23,890 bases of DNA from a virus. The notes under the pieces are model-generated. The model saw only the letters and a list, made by a program, of their open reading frames with translations. It ran no database searches and was not told the origin of the DNA. Position 1 is the stretch's first letter; the number at the start of each line of letters is the position of its first letter. The stretch covers positions 1 to 23,890 of IMG/VR virus record IMGVR_UViG_3300033143_002124; one strand, given 5' to 3'. Position numbers and translations under genes: made by a program. This document shows, in pieces, positions 1,606 through 16,454 of this stretch.

Positions 1606-2685
1606 TTAACTTAACATATACTCACTATCCATAATATCTATAAATAGATTGTTACTTAACTTATTTACTGATTGTGGTGTTCCTGCTAATTCAGTCAAGA
1701 TATTAGCTAGTAAATCACTATCAGCTAGTTCAGCCATGATTAATCTATAATTGGTTCGTACTTTATCCATGTTATTTGGATGTGCAGCGAATGCATCATG
1801 AATATGAGCCAATTGAAATCCTTGTTGGTTGGCCATACGTACCATCTCTCGAGCGATATAAGCATCAATACTATGTATCACATTAGGTACTAATGAGCTG
1901 CTCTTAATAGATGGCTGGTTGGCTTCAAATCGATATGTGAATGTAGTATTAGCTAATTCATCAACTTGGATCCTTGCATTTACCATTTCAGTTACTTTAA
2001 CACATGCTACATGTCCATCAGGTAAAGTCCATTTATGTTGTAATGCATACTCGTCCCAGTATTGGTTAATTAAATCCATAACTGCTTGAGCACCTGTAAA
2101 TGAATCAGCCATAGCATTATAGAATGCTGCCTGTTGGACATCAGTCAATGTATCTTGTGACATCTTATTATAAAAATGAGTCATAAGAGGCCGCTTAACA
2201 TCACTACGATTTACATGCTCATGTAATGGTAGATTGAAATTCATTTCGTTTACCATATGAGTATATACGTCTTCCCGTTGTCCAGTAGGTATCATGTTTA
2301 CATGAGCTGCTGTACGTTTACAACCAGATAGTGCTGCCATTATCTGTAGCCCTGATGCAGTTGCATCTAACATCATGGCATGGCCAGATGTGAGACCAGC
2401 TTCAGTTTTACGAAGAGCATTAACAGCCTTAAGATATAACATTGGCTCATCTGCTTGATCTACATAATCTTCAAGATATGGTAAGTTTTGAGTCGTCCAG
2501 TCTATCGAAATGTTGCATGTATCTCTCCTAAATCGGTTATTAATTGGTAATAAAGCTTCAGCATAAGTGATGATCATTTCAAGATTATCTACTAAAGATG
2601 AATGCTTTAAATCTAAGGCTATTGATTGCCCTTTACGAGCACGTCGTATTATGTTTTCAATATCAGTAATCTCATTATGTGTCAT
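1606..2685 (-). CDS. RNA polymerase, C-terminal catalytic subunit (N4 RNAPII gp16-like)
   Basis: This 359-residue protein is the catalytic half of a T7-family single-subunit RNA polymerase. Motif A is LDATASGLQ with D107 (T7 D537). Motif B is RSDVKRPLMTHFY with R160, K164 and Y172 spaced like T7 R627, K631 and Y639. PNVIHSIDA holds H271 (T7 H784). Motif C is HIHDAF with H296 and D297 (T7 H811, D812). Motif B has Asn where T7 has Gly640. The N-terminal polymerase half is a separate gene just upstream, as in N4 RNAPII, where two subunits form the enzyme that transcribes middle genes. The ATG follows the upstream stop codon after a single base, with GGGG as ribosome binding site. All catalytic residues are present, so the gene should be functional. 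Confidence 0.93.
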   Translation of the reverse strand: MTHNEITDIENIIRRARKGQSIALDLKHSSLVDNLEMIITYAEALLPINNRFRRDTCNISIDWTTQNLPYLEDYVDQADEPMLYLKAVNALRKTEAGLTSGHAMMLDATASGLQIMAALSGCKRTAAHVNMIPTGQREDVYTHMVNEMNFNLPLHEHVNRSDVKRPLMTHFYNKMSQDTLTDVQQAAFYNAMADSFTGAQAVMDLINQYWDEYALQHKWTLPDGHVACVKVTEMVNARIQVDELANTTFTYRFEANQPSIKSSSLVPNVIHSIDAYIAREMVRMANQQGFQLAHIHDAFAAHPNNMDKVRTNYRLIMAELADSDLLANILTELAGTPQSVNKLSNNLFIDIMDSEYMLS

Positions 2686-2686
2686 A

Positions 2687-3586
2687 TTACCCCGTAATTA
2701 ATTCTTCATCATAGAAATCCAGTATTGCTTTCTTATACTGGGTTGATTGTAAATGTAAATGATAACCTTGTGAGTACATACGTCCTCTACTATCGTTATT
2801 CCATTCAAAGTAGAATTGGTTTCCACCATCCATTAACTCATTATAGACAACTGTTGATTGGTTTTTCATTAACTCAAATTGAGTCAATTTATCGTGAGTA
2901 TCTAATTCCTTATTAGATTTCTCAACATAGTCAACCAGTTCATTTAACTGCCAAGGTATATGCTGAAGTATATTCAAGACATCTAATGATTGGTCACCAT
3001 TGTGATGATTCATTGAACCAAGTATACAACTACCTGATCCCTGTAGCGCTCCTCCGTTTTTGTTATTCGTCCAATCGTTTGGTTCGCACAACATAGGTGG
3101 TAAGTACTTCGTCTTAGCTATTAAGTCGGCTGTTGCATCATCTAGTTTGAAGTTAGATCTTACACTTAGCGTTCCAGTCTCATTCAACTCGTCTGTATGC
3201 TTATAGATGGTGTATGCACCACTCTGTTCACACACTGCAATAAGTTCAGCCCCTGTTTTAACACCATCAAGTATGTTGTCATACCCTAATGCTAAGCCAA
3301 TCTGGCTTGCTAATGACTGAATTGGACTTACTTCTTGTATTGGTAATAATACTGCTAATAATTCAGATGCTATTTCTTCATTAGTTAATTTACCTTGTAA
3401 AGCCATAACTCTATCTGCTTTTGATTGATAATAACCAAAAGCTCCCATTCGATAATTATAAATGAGTTGAGTAATATTTAAAAATACTAGATGCTCTGGA
3501 TTAACATCTGCTTTAACTAATCCACGTATGTTTCTACGTGAGTATCTTTTTTCTACTAGAACTTGTTGTGTATAGCGATCTTGCAT
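2687..3586 (-). CDS. RNA polymerase, N-terminal subunit (N4 RNAPII gp15-like)
   Basis: This 299-residue protein carries the N-terminal part of a T7-type polymerase and ends just after the segment DSRGRMY (residues 265-271), which matches T7 DWRGRVY. The split falls before motif A, as in N4 RNAPII (gp15/gp16), though this subunit is somewhat longer than N4 gp15. The frame reaches an ATG at 3631, but that ATG lies inside the hairpin of an intrinsic terminator. The ATG at 3586 has a proper CAGGAGTGACATCC site, so I start there (MQDRYTQQ). The product should pair with the C-terminal subunit encoded one base downstream and recognise middle promoters, probably the five-copy element reported below. 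Confidence 0.92.
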   Translation of the reverse strand: MQDRYTQQVLVEKRYSRRNIRGLVKADVNPEHLVFLNITQLIYNYRMGAFGYYQSKADRVMALQGKLTNEEIASELLAVLLPIQEVSPIQSLASQIGLALGYDNILDGVKTGAELIAVCEQSGAYTIYKHTDELNETGTLSVRSNFKLDDATADLIAKTKYLPPMLCEPNDWTNNKNGGALQGSGSCILGSMNHHNGDQSLDVLNILQHIPWQLNELVDYVEKSNKELDTHDKLTQFELMKNQSTVVYNELMDGGNQFYFEWNNDSRGRMYSQGYHLHLQSTQYKKAILDFYDEELITG

Positions 3587-3612
3587 GGATGTCACTCCTG
3601 AATTAATGAAGG

Positions 3613-3640
3613 AAAAAATAGAGAGAGCCATAAGGCTCTC
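3613..3640 (-). terminator. Intrinsic terminator between the gp14-like gene and RNA polymerase
   Basis: On the minus strand GAGAGCC, TTAT and GGCTCTC form a perfect 7-bp stem with a 4-base loop, followed by TCTATTTTTT. It lies 16 bases past the stop of the gp14-like gene and about 27 bases before the polymerase start at 3586. It would limit read-through into the polymerase genes, a possible timing or dosage control. No promoter copy is visible between it and the polymerase. Confidence 0.85.
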
Positions 3641-3656
3641 AATATTTAAGGTATTT

Positions 3657-3956
3657 CTAATCTTCTTCTTTAGCTAGTTCAGCTGCTACTGCTTTATCAA
3701 GCTTAGCTTTTTCAATGATTTCTTGTACAGAACTCATATCACGATCTTCTGCTGCTTTAAATGGACGTAATTCTGCCATAGATAAAATAGCTGCCATACC
3801 ATCTGGTTCTTGTAAATCTGCTACTGTTTCTTTTGGTGTATTCTTTTCACCAATTACAATGTAGCCAACGTAAGTATCGCCTAACCAGATCTGGTGACCT
3901 TTGTTAGGTGTGAATGCTTTCTTTTGGTTTGTTGCTGCTAGTGGGTTGTCTTGCAT
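3657..3956 (-). CDS. N4 gp14-like conserved protein
   Basis: A 99-residue soluble protein beginning MQDNPLAATNQKKAFTPNKG. Its core QIWLGDTYVGYIVIGEKN looks like a small beta domain. The C-terminal third is acidic and helical (SSVQEIIEKAKLDKAVAAEL). N4-like phages keep a small conserved gene, gp14, directly before the two RNAPII subunits, and size and position fit. That assignment rests on gene order rather than on a recognised motif. The start follows ACTGGAGTAACACT. A copy of the promoter-like element lies upstream (4000-4033) and an intrinsic terminator downstream, so it may be its own transcription unit. Confidence 0.8.
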   Translation of the reverse strand: MQDNPLAATNQKKAFTPNKGHQIWLGDTYVGYIVIGEKNTPKETVADLQEPDGMAAILSMAELRPFKAAEDRDMSSVQEIIEKAKLDKAVAAELAKEED

Positions 3957-3999: not shown

Positions 4000-4033
4000 T
4001 TCATATTGTAAAGATTGGGTTTGACTTTGTATA
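4000..4033 (-). promoter_or_regulatory. Phage promoter-like element, copy 1
   Basis: On the minus strand it reads TATACAAAGTCAAACCC followed by AATCTTTACAATATGAA. It matches the other four copies over more than 30 bases. It lies in the gap between the noncoding stretch and the gp14-like gene, about 45 bases upstream of that start codon. Conservation limited to intergenic positions, one orientation, and nearness to an encoded single-subunit polymerase all suggest a phage promoter. Confidence 0.65.
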
Positions 4034-4035
4034 CG

Positions 4036-4410
4036 GTGAAACCAGCCACACAACGACCCCCCGCGTGTGACTACAATGTTAAACTAAGAGGCGTACAACA
4101 GCCTATAAAACATCTTCTGGTTTCTGTTGCTAATAAGCAACGTGTGCTCCTATTGAAAGGATTCTAGGGGATCTATAATATCCCAGATGTATCTCTGTTA
4201 GGAGAATAAGATGTGCAGTCCACATAAAGGGTTCTAGCCCCCGATTTCGCCTACTAGAATAGACCGGCCTCTCTGGCCGCTGCACGATTAATAGTGAGCT
4301 CTTTAACCCCACTATCAAAATCAATTTGGTGCCCCCTCACTTCCGTGTTAGGAGGTCTTTAACCAGACGAATCAGGGCACAACCCCTGCCGATTTAACGG
4401 AACTGGTATT
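4036..4410 (-). ncRNA. Candidate structured noncoding RNA
   Basis: This stretch of about 375 bases has no credible gene on either strand but many short GC-rich helices on the minus strand. CCG/CGG (4389-4400). GTGCCC/GGGCAC (4329-4334 with 4375-4380) enclosing CAC-GGAA-GTG and GTCT/AGAC. ATAGTG/CACTAT (4291-4296 with 4310-4315). CTGCAC/GTGCAG (4213-4218 with 4280-4285) closing a junction that holds the CGGCC/GGCCG hairpin (4265-4279) and TTCTAG/CTAGAA (4232-4237 with 4254-4259). GGGAT/ATCCC (4168-4184). GTTGCT/AGCAAC (4126-4141). CACAC/GTGTG (4047-4051 with 4065-4069). Several loops contain GTTAAA. Promoter copy 2 lies immediately upstream and copy 1 immediately downstream, so it looks like its own transcription unit. 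I recognise no named RNA family; function unknown. Confidence 0.55.
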
Positions 4411-4445
4411 TTCATCTTTTAAAGATTGCTTTTGATCTTAGTATA
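4411..4445 (-). promoter_or_regulatory. Phage promoter-like element, copy 2
   Basis: On the minus strand it reads TATACTAAGATCAAAAGC followed by AATCTTTAAAAGATGAA. It overlaps the last codons of the gene at 4438-4869 and points into the gene-free, hairpin-rich stretch 4036-4410. In this copy AAGAT and ATCTT could also pair around an 8-base spacer, which is not conserved in all copies. Confidence 0.65.
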
Positions 4446-4869
4446 GATCATACCCATTATCGGCTAATATGCCTTTAATGCGGGTAACAACCATAGAAGG
4501 GGTTACATTTGCATGAATTACAGGATATTTATAAGGTGCAAATAAATATTCTGACTGTGTTGTAGTAATACCGGTAAATTCCCCAATAGCACTAAATGTG
4601 GTGCTAAGTTCCATTTCAATATGAGTGCCCTCATTTAAGGACAAGCCTATGCCTTTGAAGCTGAATTGTTTACGCCATGCAGGGATAAGTAAAATAGCCC
4701 AGCCAACTGCACAAGCAGAAGTACCACAATCCAATGCTTTCTTCAAAGTTGGTTCAGTACGACGGCCTGCATCATTTGCCCAGTGTGAAATGTTAAAGGT
4801 AGCTTCTTTAGGTAATGTTTCTAACATATTAAGTACACTTACTAATCGATTTGCTTGGATCTGTTTCAT
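4438..4869 (-). CDS. Hypothetical protein with CGTxAC..GW motif
   Basis: This is a 143-residue soluble protein. Residues 47-58 read DCGTSACAVGWA (C48, C53). I recognise this Cys-Gly-Thr-x-Ala-Cys-x-x-Gly-Trp signature from uncharacterised phage and bacterial proteins, but know no function for it. The N-terminus is helical (RLVSVLNMLETLPKEATFNI). The start follows ACCGGAGAATAAC, which contains the stop codon of the upstream gene, so the two are coupled. It is the last gene before promoter copy 2 and the noncoding stretch. The paired cysteines could bind a metal or form a disulfide; this is inference. Confidence 0.82.
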   Translation of the reverse strand: MKQIQANRLVSVLNMLETLPKEATFNISHWANDAGRRTEPTLKKALDCGTSACAVGWAILLIPAWRKQFSFKGIGLSLNEGTHIEMELSTTFSAIGEFTGITTTQSEYLFAPYKYPVIHANVTPSMVVTRIKGILADNGYDLY

Positions 4870-9592: not shown

Positions 9593-9627
9593 TCCACGTT
9601 GTAGAGATTGCTCTTGATCTTGTGTGT
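9593..9627 (-). promoter_or_regulatory. Phage promoter-like element, copy 5
   Basis: On the minus strand it reads CTACACACAAGATCAAGAGC followed by AATCTCTACAACGTGGA. It is the most diverged of the five copies (G for A in TCAAGA, GTGGA for ATGAA) and lies at the head of the whole leftward gene series. AGAT and ATCT could pair within it, but this is not shared by all copies. Confidence 0.6.
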
Positions 9628-9664
9628 AGTGTGTGTACAGAGAGATTAAAAGATAGTTAATGAT

Positions 9665-9690
9665 GAAGCTACCGGGGGGTGCTTCGGTTT
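9665..9690 (+). terminator. Possible rightward terminator in the divergent region
   Basis: GAAGC (9665-9669) pairs with GCTTC (9681-9685), and ACC (671-673) with GGT (678-680) around GGGG, with one bulged T. GGTTTT follows on the plus strand. The shape suits an intrinsic terminator, though the U-tract is short. Confidence 0.4.
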
Positions 9691-13086: not shown

Positions 13087-13164
13087 CCGGGTGTAACGAA
13101 AGCTTGGTCATCGTCCTGGTCTGGAGCCAGGAATACGTAGGTTCAAATCCTACCGCCCGGACCA
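13087..13164 (+). tRNA. tRNA-Pro (anticodon TGG), unusual loop
   Basis: A full cloverleaf can be drawn: acceptor CCGGGTG/CGCCCGG, D arm ACGA/TCGT, anticodon stem CCTGG/CCAGG, T arm GTAGG-TTCAAAT-CCTAC, then A and an encoded CCA. The anticodon loop TCTGGAG puts TGG at 34-36, which reads proline CCA codons. It has C in place of the near-universal T at position 33 and no base 26 between D and anticodon stems. The loop may be a mutation or the tRNA may be special; identity is therefore less sure than for its neighbours. Confidence 0.75.
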
Positions 13165-13170
13165 AATTTA

Positions 13171-13246
13171 TGAGGTGTAGCTCAGCTGGTAGAGCATTCG
13201 GCTGATAACCGGAGGGTCGTTGGTTCAAGTCCAACTACCTCAACCA
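13171..13246 (+). tRNA. tRNA-Ile (anticodon GAT)
   Basis: Acceptor TGAGGTG/TACCTCA, D arm with AGCTGGTAG, anticodon stem TTCGG/CCGGA with loop CTGATAA (anticodon GAT), T arm GTTGG-TTCAAGT-CCAAC, then A and encoded CCA. All usual conserved bases are present. It follows tRNA-Pro by 6 bases, so the set is probably cut from one transcript. It reads ATC and ATT codons, which are frequent in these AT-rich genes. Confidence 0.95.
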
Positions 13247-13252
13247 TTATAT

Positions 13253-13327
13253 AGAGATGTGGCGAAATGGGAACGCATCGGGCTTTGATCCCGACATGAG
13301 AGGGCTCGATACCTTCCATCTCTGCCA
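13253..13327 (+). tRNA. tRNA-Gln (anticodon TTG)
   Basis: Acceptor AGAGATG/CATCTCT, anticodon stem TCGGG/CCCGA with loop CTTTGAT (anticodon TTG), T arm GAGGG/CCTTC with loop CTCGATA (C at the first position of the loop), discriminator G as in bacterial tRNA-Gln, then encoded CCA. It reads CAA codons. It is 6 bases behind tRNA-Ile. Confidence 0.9.
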
Positions 13328-14110: not shown

Positions 14111-14857
14111 ATGTCCACACTTCCAACTACAGCGTATACAGATGAACAACTGACAATAGATCAGTTTCAGCGTGTACTTCCAAAACAGGTTAAAGCGAAA
14201 TTAACCCCTGAAATGATTAAGAACATTAATGGGGTCATTAGTGATCCTGGGATTCGGGATAATTACCGGGATAACCTATTAAGTTACACCGGTGTAATGC
14301 AAGATGGTAAGTATAAGATCCAGTCTTATATTGATGCTGTGCGTTATGTCTCCCATAAGTTAATGGGCAGCTCTAATGTGGAAGCTTATACCAAAACATT
14401 CCCTAACCGGTACCAACGAGTTGTTACTGAAAACAAGCACTTAGCACCAGAAGCTATTGGTAAGATTTTATCCAGCTATGTTGCTGCGTATAACAAAACC
14501 AAGTTAGTTGTTAAGGTGTTTGAGCAGACATTAGTTCCAAGCTATATTCTGAATGCTGATCTATATCAGAAAGCTCTTAATCGCCAAGCATACCTAATGG
14601 TCCATGCTAATAGTGAGAAAGTACAGTCAGATGCAGCTAACTCAGTATTAACCCATCTCAAGGTTCCTGAGGCTACGAAGATTGAGCTTGATATTGGTGT
14701 CAAGCAGGATAAATCGATTGATATGTTACGGGAGGCTACTTTGGCTCTAGCTAAAGAACAACAGGCTGCAATTGAACGTGGTGAGATGACTGCTAAGGAT
14801 ATTGCGCATAGTCAGATCATCCAGGGTGAAGCTGTGGAACTAAAAGATGTCAACTAA
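14111..14857 (+). CDS. N4 gp69-like protein, possible small terminase subunit
   Basis: A 248-residue, mostly helical protein. The first 60 residues (TDEQLTIDQFQRVLPKQVKA and onward) and the middle are rich in charged helices, without membrane segment. It sits just before the large terminase, whose start codon lies in its last bases (11-base overlap), as gp69 precedes gp68 in N4-like phages. Small terminase subunits recognise the packaging site and load the large one; the role here is inferred from position and size, as no diagnostic motif is visible. AGAGGCTCATT before the ATG and a sigma70-type promoter upstream decide the start. Confidence 0.78.
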   Translation: MSTLPTTAYTDEQLTIDQFQRVLPKQVKAKLTPEMIKNINGVISDPGIRDNYRDNLLSYTGVMQDGKYKIQSYIDAVRYVSHKLMGSSNVEAYTKTFPNRYQRVVTENKHLAPEAIGKILSSYVAAYNKTKLVVKVFEQTLVPSYILNADLYQKALNRQAYLMVHANSEKVQSDAANSVLTHLKVPEATKIELDIGVKQDKSIDMLREATLALAKEQQAAIERGEMTAKDIAHSQIIQGEAVELKDVN

Positions 14858-16454
14858 TGTCTTTGAAGAGGGTATTGAGGTATTCCGTACGGTTACATCC
14901 TATCTGGATGAAATTAGCTATGAAGTAGACCCTTCCTATGTGCCAAGCCAATTTGCATTAGAGTTTGTTAACTTTATTAAGATGGTGGATGGTGGAGAAT
15001 CTGAGAATAAGACCCCAGTGGTACACTATCATATGATTGATGGTTTTATAGCCGATGATGAGGAAGGTCTTGATCTCATCAACATGTGCCATCGTGGTAT
15101 CGCGAAGTCCACACTAAAAGAATACCTAATATTATATATTGGTTTGTACGGAGAATTACCTGTATTTGGTAAGGTCCCCTATGCGTTGTATGTATCTGAT
15201 AGTATTGAGAATGGTGTTAAGAAGATGCGTAAGTCACTGGAGTACCGATGGAATAATTCAGACTTCTTACAGGAGTATATACCTATAACCAAGTTTACTG
15301 ATGTAAGATGGGAGTTTATCAACAAGTACGGGAATAGCTTCGTTGTATCTGGATATGGTGCTAAGACCGGTGTTCGTGGTACTCGTGAAAATGGTAGTAG
15401 ACCTGTATTAGCTCTCCTGGATGATTTAATTAGTGATGCTGATGCACGGTCTGCAACAGTAATCGCTGATGTTGAAGATACTGTAACAAAGGCAATCGAT
15501 TATGCACTCCACCCAAAGAAAAGAAAAATTATCTGGTCAGGTACCCCCTTCAATGCTAGAGATCCTTTGTATAAAGCCGTCGAATCCGGTGCCTGGAGGG
15601 TTAATGTCTACCCCGTGTGCGAAAGGTTTCCATGTTCCCGGGAAGAATTCCGAGGATCCTGGGAAGACCGATTCGATTATGACTACGTCTACAAGATGTA
15701 CAAAAAAGCAATGCGTCAAGGTAAATTAGCATCCTTCAATCAGGAATTAATGCTGCGCATCATGAGTGAAGAGGACCGGTTGATCCAAGATTCTGATATT
15801 ATGTGGTATAAACGTCGTAATTTGATCAAGAATCGCCACTTATTCAACTTCTACATTACAACTGACTTTGCTACCAGTGATAAGACTGCAGCAGACTATA
15901 GTGTTATCTCAGTATGGGCCTTAAACAATAAAGGTGATTGGTTCTGGGTTGATGGTATTGTTAAGAAGCAGTTAATGGACAAGAACATTGATGATTTGTT
16001 CCGATTAGCTCAGATGTATAAGCCTATGGCAGTAGGTATCGAAGTATCTGGCCAACAGGGTGGATTCATACCCTGGATTACTGATAAAATGATTGAGAAG
16101 AACATCTTCTTCAACCTGGCATCAGATAATAATGGTAAGAAACCTGGTATTCGCCCTTCAACACAGAAGATTGAGCGCTTTAACCTTATGGTTCCGATGT
16201 TTAAGACTCACCAGATGTGGTTTCCTGAAGAATTGAAGATGGATCCACGTATTGTTGAGTTCATGGAGGAATTGACCCTGGTGACCCCGGCAGAATTCAA
16301 ATCCAAGCATGATGACTGCTGTGATACTATCTCAATGTTAGCTTCTTTAACAACATTTAAGCCAGCAGAGGCTGAATTGACTAATGTACTTGATCCTCTT
16401 TGGGAAGATGAGGAGAGAGAAGTATCCTCAGATTTGGATTCATACCTAGTATAG
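14847..16454 (+). CDS. Large terminase subunit (N4 gp68-like)
   Basis: This 535-residue protein is the packaging motor ATPase and nuclease. Residues 81-89 are an atypical Walker A, CHRGIAKST (K87, S88, T89). Residues 186-193, PVLALLDD, are Walker B. IIWSGTPFN (228-236) is the coupling motif. The nuclease part has YITTDF (D340), a central acid in AVGIEVSG (E399) and KHDDCCD (D489, D490). Length matches N4 gp68 within a few residues. It would cut and translocate DNA into the prohead through the portal. It overlaps the gp69-like gene and ends in TAG about 48 bases before the next gene. Confidence 0.94.
   Translation: MSTNVFEEGIEVFRTVTSYLDEISYEVDPSYVPSQFALEFVNFIKMVDGGESENKTPVVHYHMIDGFIADDEEGLDLINMCHRGIAKSTLKEYLILYIGLYGELPVFGKVPYALYVSDSIENGVKKMRKSLEYRWNNSDFLQEYIPITKFTDVRWEFINKYGNSFVVSGYGAKTGVRGTRENGSRPVLALLDDLISDADARSATVIADVEDTVTKAIDYALHPKKRKIIWSGTPFNARDPLYKAVESGAWRVNVYPVCERFPCSREEFRGSWEDRFDYDYVYKMYKKAMRQGKLASFNQELMLRIMSEEDRLIQDSDIMWYKRRNLIKNRHLFNFYITTDFATSDKTAADYSVISVWALNNKGDWFWVDGIVKKQLMDKNIDDLFRLAQMYKPMAVGIEVSGQQGGFIPWITDKMIEKNIFFNLASDNNGKKPGIRPSTQKIERFNLMVPMFKTHQMWFPEELKMDPRIVEFMEELTLVTPAEFKSKHDDCCDTISMLASLTTFKPAEAELTNVLDPLWEDEEREVSSDLDSYLV

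Follow-up and report, generated by a model that had tools for sequence, protein, structure and literature searches.

A candidate two-domain noncoding RNA with an exchangeable linker ahead of the RNA polymerase operon of an N4-like phage

Ahead of the RNA polymerase operon of an N4-like phage lies a stretch of about 375 nt without a gene, and the question it raises is whether this DNA encodes a structured RNA and, if it does, how such an RNA would be made and used. N4-like phages are a family of well-studied lytic podophages. The stretch lies in 23,890 nt of viral DNA (positions 1 to 23,890 of IMG/VR record IMGVR_UViG_3300033143_002124), the whole of which we call the window. Judged by its gene content, the phage is N4-like (family Schitoviridae): the window encodes the N4-type hallmarks, namely both RNA polymerase II subunits and the large terminase, and the nearest named relatives of the terminase (14847-16454) are Schitoviridae, at 61-66% identity. 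The stretch is flanked, on the early strand, by a 143-aa gene (4438-4869) and by the 99-aa gene that opens the polymerase operon:

3657-3956, minus strand: 99-aa gene, function unassigned, first in the phage RNA polymerase operon, downstream of the RNA
2687-3631, minus strand: RNAP1, N4-type RNA polymerase II subunit (PHROG 2166, 2051 and 414 across RNAP1 and RNAP2)
1606-2685, minus strand: RNAP2, N4-type RNA polymerase II subunit

The initial annotation had placed a large structured noncoding RNA with its own promoter at 4036-4410. We confirmed the observation itself; its interpretation is partly supported. The coordinates are correct, the conserved RNA running from 4410 to 4037 on the minus strand. 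The stretch carries no plausible gene, as had been claimed, in that frames of at least 50 aa are limited to one of 64 aa (minus strand) and one of 50 aa (plus strand), both starting with TTG; the orthologous stretch of the relative described below has no listed ORF of at least 50 aa. It is also richer in GC than its neighbours, 45% vs 37-40% nearby. The folding energy of the whole stretch beat that of dinucleotide shuffles on both strands (z of -2.85 on the minus and -3.94 on the plus strand), and thus the folding energy of the single sequence settles neither function nor strand.

A search with the 99-aa protein found one relative, a 77 kb IMG/VR contig (IMGVR_UViG_3300033143_002183; L003 or G001 in the coordinates given here). 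It encodes a 70% identical ortholog of the 99-aa protein in the equivalent position, has the same gene order and carries the element in the equivalent place (L003:5558-5942), with a length of 385 nt vs 374 nt in the window. The two elements are not evenly conserved along their length. The 5′ part, domain A (4410-4328), is 88% identical; the 3′ part, domain B, is 77% identical overall, its P5-P6 half (4208-4117) reaching 91% and its P7-P9 half 59%, yet with helices P8 and P9 intact. The linker of about 120 nt that joins the two domains is 46% identical and barely aligns. At the DNA level the flanking genes are 54% and 76% (two upstream genes), 73% (the 99-aa gene), 79% (RNAP2) and 82% (a further gene) identical, so that both domain A and the better-conserved half of domain B (88-91%) stand above every flanking gene compared (54-82%). 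Elsewhere in the two genomes, a tRNA trio differs in its middle member (Pro-Ile-Gln at 13087-13327 of the window, Pro-Met-Gln at L052:1318-1570 of the relative), and RNAP1 of the relative (L003:6372-7221; G001:72218-73067) is split into two overlapping frames, either by a sequencing or assembly frameshift or by a genuine break.

Consensus folding of the two sequences gave the following helices:

4328-4410, minus strand: domain A (5′ domain), P1 enclosing P2 and P3, followed by hairpin P4
4407-4403/4366-4362, minus strand: P1, two compensatory pairs
4400-4398/4391-4389, minus strand: P2, loop UUAAAU
4388-4384/4377-4373, minus strand: P3, inside P1
4355-4347/4340-4332, minus strand: P4, hairpin 3′ of P1
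4037-4208, minus strand: domain B (3′ domain), compensatory changes in three pairs and one-sided changes in two, all pairs kept
4204-4200/4151-4147, minus strand: P5 (CUCCU/AGGAG), enclosing inner helices 4187-4177/4173-4163
4126-4141, minus strand: P6 (GTTGCT TATT AGCAAC), perfect 6-bp hairpin with a 4-nt loop, a U-A pair changed to C-G in the relative
4124-4119/4043-4038, minus strand: P9, enclosing the variable P7 and P8
4072-4065/4051-4044, minus strand: P8, within P9

The stretch contains two independent conserved folded domains on the minus strand. The consensus has 62 pairs, of which five are changed on both sides (P1 accounts for two, and P6, P7 and P9 for one each); a further three are changed on one side, and none is broken. 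Against column-shuffled alignments of the same composition and conservation, the consensus z was about -3.0 for domain A and -4.7 to -4.8 for domain B. Sliding the pairing partners by 1-3 columns lowered the paired cells from 100% to 29-57%. A simple shuffle of the 3′ letters (136/500 and 59/500) is, with two sequences, not significant alone. The covariation in a related phage on which the initial annotation had made its proposal depend is thus present, although five compensatory events between two members lie below R-scape-grade statistics. The comparison also favours the minus strand, to which the RNA had been assigned: for domain A the z was -2.98 vs -2.67 on the opposite strand and for domain B -4.71 vs -3.66, with lower minus-strand energies.

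Individual helices proposed earlier fared unequally. The P6 hairpin and the CTGCAC/GTGCAG closing helix (4213-4218 with 4280-4285) are present in the sequence and were predicted when the pieces were folded. Of the 'at least ten short helices', some are conserved and several fall outside the conserved fold. GTTAAA does occur three times, but just the first copy (4398-4393) forms a hairpin loop, that of P2, when both species are folded together; the second is the single-stranded joint between P1 and P4, and the hairpin proposed for it is impossible in the relative. The RNA also contains a conserved ACCUCCU (4356-4350, minus strand), which resembles the 3′ end of 16S rRNA and is mostly locked in P4, and an AGGAG (4151-4147, minus strand) locked in P5; the pair could be due to chance or could reflect a link to the ribosome.

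How would such an RNA be transcribed? Both genomes carry a 33-nt repeat with the consensus ACACAAGATCAAAAGCAATCTTTACAACATGAA. The window has five copies and the relative four, each of which lies on the early strand ahead of an early operon and scores far above the background:

Starts at 9625, 8738, 7113, 4443 and 4032, minus strand: repeat copies in the window (matrix scan)
Starts at G001 65435, 66292, 68360 and 71372, plus strand: repeat copies in the relative (matrix scan)
4411-4443, minus strand: promoter-like repeat directly upstream of the RNA, matrix score 40.0 (best background site in the window, 14.9)
4000-4032, minus strand: second copy, in the interval between the RNA and the 99-aa gene, matrix score 38.5

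Two strong copies therefore do bracket the RNA, at 4443-4411 and 4032-4000, as the initial annotation had described. The upstream copy is conserved in the relative (G001:71372); the second is absent there, the best score in the interval between RNA and operon being negative. From its position and recurrence, the repeat upstream of the RNA is likely a promoter, and it may be that of this clade's virion RNA polymerase or of RNAP II. The early promoters of N4 are short hairpins in single-stranded template DNA (PMC3715699). As a standard N4 hairpin promoter the 33-nt repeat is not a clear fit; most copies allow a stem of 3-4 bp with a 4-nt loop. Separately, a near-identical C-rich segment, AACCGAAGCACCCCCCGGTAGCTTCATCATTAACTATCTTTTAAT, precedes the first early gene in both phages (window about 9645-9690, minus strand; G001 about 65365-65410), and C-rich hairpins similar to it occur in contigs G016/G017 and G024; it is possibly a left-end or early regulatory element.

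We found no intrinsic terminator after the RNA; the sole terminator-like match inside it is a hairpin in the linker, with a poor T tract. Taken with the missing second promoter, this means that the relative's RNA would form one transcript with the polymerase operon in the absence of processing. Of the claim that the RNA has its own promoter, the promoter-like element directly upstream therefore stands, but an independent transcript is not established.

These observations give some weight to a second reading, which we consider a real possibility though not the favoured one: the RNA may be a cis-acting, structured 5′ leader of the operon that comprises the 99-aa gene and the two polymerase subunits, tuning the timing or dosage of their expression through folding, RNase processing or attenuation, with the tRNA-like insert of the relative (below) as a processing site. 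The RNA lies immediately upstream of the operon in both phages, transcripts in the relative would run on into it, and the SD-like AGGAG of domain B is locked in P5. In N4, moreover, the early-to-middle transcription switch is RNAP II synthesis (PMC4496689). Against a leader, the operon of the window has its own strong promoter-like copy downstream of the RNA, domain B ends 80 nt ahead of the start codon with the ribosome site outside any conserved structure, and a long two-domain architecture with an exchangeable linker exceeds what an attenuator needs. In our view, trans action by a stable early RNA is somewhat more likely than a cis leader, and the leader stays alive because the relative lacks the second promoter.

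The linker is where the two RNAs differ most:

4209-4327, minus strand: linker of the window, hairpin 4318-4288 plus junction 4285-4213, joint z -3.49
4213-4285, minus strand: multi-helix junction, GTGCAG (4285-4280) paired with CTGCAC (4218-4213), hairpins inside; fold of 4210-4288, z -2.08
L003:5648-5768: tRNA-Leu-like cloverleaf in the linker of the relative (ARAGORN, intron mode), with an encoded CCA end

In the insert of the relative, the acceptor stem has 7 bp (TGAGAGA/TCTCTCA) and is followed by ACCA; the D arm is of Leu type and the T arm contains TTCGACT. The intron mode thus recovers both of these arms together with the acceptor stem and the CCA end. ARAGORN detects the insert solely when skipping 36 nt at the anticodon; the insert has no usable anticodon arm and is missed by standard ARAGORN and by the Rfam tRNA model. 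Its 5′ half aligns to a phage tRNA-Leu over the interval that runs from D arm to variable arm, with part of the anticodon arm missing, and the D-arm half matches annotated phage tRNA-Leu genes, weakly. Detection in intron mode alone, together with these alignments and matches, indicates that the linker of the relative probably derives from a tRNA without being a decoding one. The linker of the window shows no tRNA features, either to Rfam or to intron-tolerant ARAGORN, and the sequence of its junction is not conserved in the relative. A 5-bp hairpin with a loop of 5 nt, and an AGGCG in the second hairpin, are common to this junction and to the expanded variable-arm junction of the relative; the two align too weakly for a claim of homology.

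Could the whole element then be a functionless relic of a region of tRNA genes, made up of a decayed tRNA-Leu and its adjoining spacer? The tRNA-Leu-like skeleton of the relative suggests it, as do the frequency of tRNA genes in phages and the tRNAs that both genomes carry elsewhere. Decay would not, however, have kept the parts outside the insert as the best-conserved DNA of the neighbourhood, with compensatory changes, and the linker of the window is devoid of tRNA features; we consider a remnant very unlikely.

We give equally little credence to an element that works as DNA, such as a replication or packaging site or a promoter cluster, whose inverted repeats would form DNA hairpins like the promoters of the N4 virion RNA polymerase. 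Flanking by promoter-like repeats would suit such an element, given that N4-type early promoters are hairpins of the template strand (PMC3715699), and plus-strand folding also beats shuffles. In the two-species comparison, though, it is the minus strand that scores better, and the consensus P4, the inner P5 helices, P7 and P8 contain minus-strand U-G pairs, which are mismatches on the plus strand. Multi-domain junctions are, besides, typical of RNA and not of DNA sites.

Searches for further members gave no third one in the collections covered. Scanning with all 4227 families of Rfam release 15 (cmscan, E up to 10), the check that the initial annotation had proposed, gave a lone chance match to a CRISPR repeat in the window (E 2.9), no match for the relative's RNA and hence no family for the RNA; neither ARAGORN nor Rfam found a tmRNA in the window or the relative. 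Nucleotide searches with both RNAs against 50,697 phage records, and with the relative's RNA against 72,556 plasmids, gave no homolog, the phage matches being tRNA or coding pieces. In IMG/VR, pattern scans at the DNA level with segments of both domains and of P8 returned the one relative and no third member; matches in L006 and L066 are chance hits in unrelated GC-rich contigs. The same kind of scan, run once on bacterial and archaeal genomes, yielded one exact occurrence of the pattern, in Marinicella. A further 27 records, nearly all from N4-like phages (15 N4-type IMG/VR contigs and 12 named phages), contained no real member by covariance models of the two domains, and the domain A model R1 gave real scores for the window and the relative only. 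The best outside matches, in G024 and Alteromonas phage PT15-A5, are weak and lie inside a DNA polymerase gene and antisense in a tape-measure gene, respectively.

In three other N4-like contigs, L067, L068 (G017, G016) and L071 (G024), stretches of 550-860 nt without ATG-started genes of at least 40 aa lie on the early strand upstream of RNAP1. They gave no Rfam match except tRNA; some may hold opposite-strand genes and some further RNAs.

That the RNA is a diverged member of a described family (GOLLD, ROOL, group I/II intron, tmRNA, RNase P RNA or HEARO) is the least probable reading of all, since its layout resembles that of GOLLD and ROOL but the Rfam scan gave nothing beyond the chance CRISPR-repeat match and no tmRNA was found. 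Size and covariance models do not match GOLLD or ROOL, as the initial annotation had supposed when it named no family, and by these measures the RNA is a separate small family with two known members.

Given the conserved fold with its preference for the minus strand, its location just behind the repeat and, in the relative, the tRNA-like insert, we favour, at about even confidence, a conserved structured early noncoding RNA of about 375 nt, with two domains and an exchangeable linker, which would be stable and act in trans as a scaffold or decoy. The promoter-like element at 4443-4411 would drive its early transcription on the minus strand, and the RNA is predicted to fold as domain A (4410-4328) and domain B (4208-4037) joined by the linker. 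We infer, by analogy with the manner of action proposed for GOLLD and ROOL, that it would accumulate as a stable species, with the linker as its displayed or enclosed part. A tRNA-like linker might be bound by the host tRNA machinery, for which RNase P, CCA-binding factors and leucyl-tRNA synthetase would be the first candidates. A bolder version, which we regard as rather unlikely, is that the RNA represents a new class of 'ornate' phage RNA, far more compact than GOLLD and ROOL, unrelated to them in sequence and convergent on their plan, that acts in trans at an early stage of infection and, by displaying or enclosing its linker, captures host tRNA or the translation machinery.

Large phage RNAs have so far been long and hard to work with, and we know of no function for GOLLD, ROOL and similar RNAs. 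A two-domain RNA of less than 400 nt with the same layout would be far easier to probe, delete and study structurally, and the natural swap of a tRNA-like for a non-tRNA linker between close relatives makes the idea that the linker is the cargo directly testable. Were the RNA instead a leader, it would place RNA-level control on the early-to-middle transcription switch of N4-type phages, a switch at which we know of no RNA element.

Among known systems, structured leaders of phage operons are alike in position, the RNA being flanked by an early promoter-like element on one side and by the RNA polymerase operon on the other, but the operon of the window has its own promoter copy, and neither a terminator nor a ribosome-site switch is evident. 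With tmRNA and other tRNA-like domains the linker of the relative shares acceptor, D arm, T arm and CCA in the absence of a functional anticodon arm; unlike tmRNA, the insert is internal to a longer RNA, Leu-like and not Ala-like, has no tag frame and is absent from the window. ROOL, with stems P1 to P19 and a pseudoknot, is likewise a phage or prophage RNA with a variable linker, but the RNA described here has far fewer helices and no Rfam covariance match. GOLLD is often longer than 800 nt; the RNA here has 374-385 nt, gave no Rfam covariance match in either phage (E up to 10) and carries, in the relative, a tRNA-like insert that cannot decode. A homo-oligomeric RNA cage is a further trait of GOLLD, and one that the N4-like phage RNA may or may not share. 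The likeness lies in the plan. The linker of ROOL has little or no similarity among homologues and lies between conserved parts, and GOLLD has separate 5′ and 3′ domains with a variable linker that sometimes contains tRNAs (PMC12286853); like GOLLD, the RNA described here is predicted to be a phage-encoded multi-domain noncoding RNA, whose conserved domains (88% and 77% identity) flank a linker that is 46% identical and, in the relative, tRNA-like.
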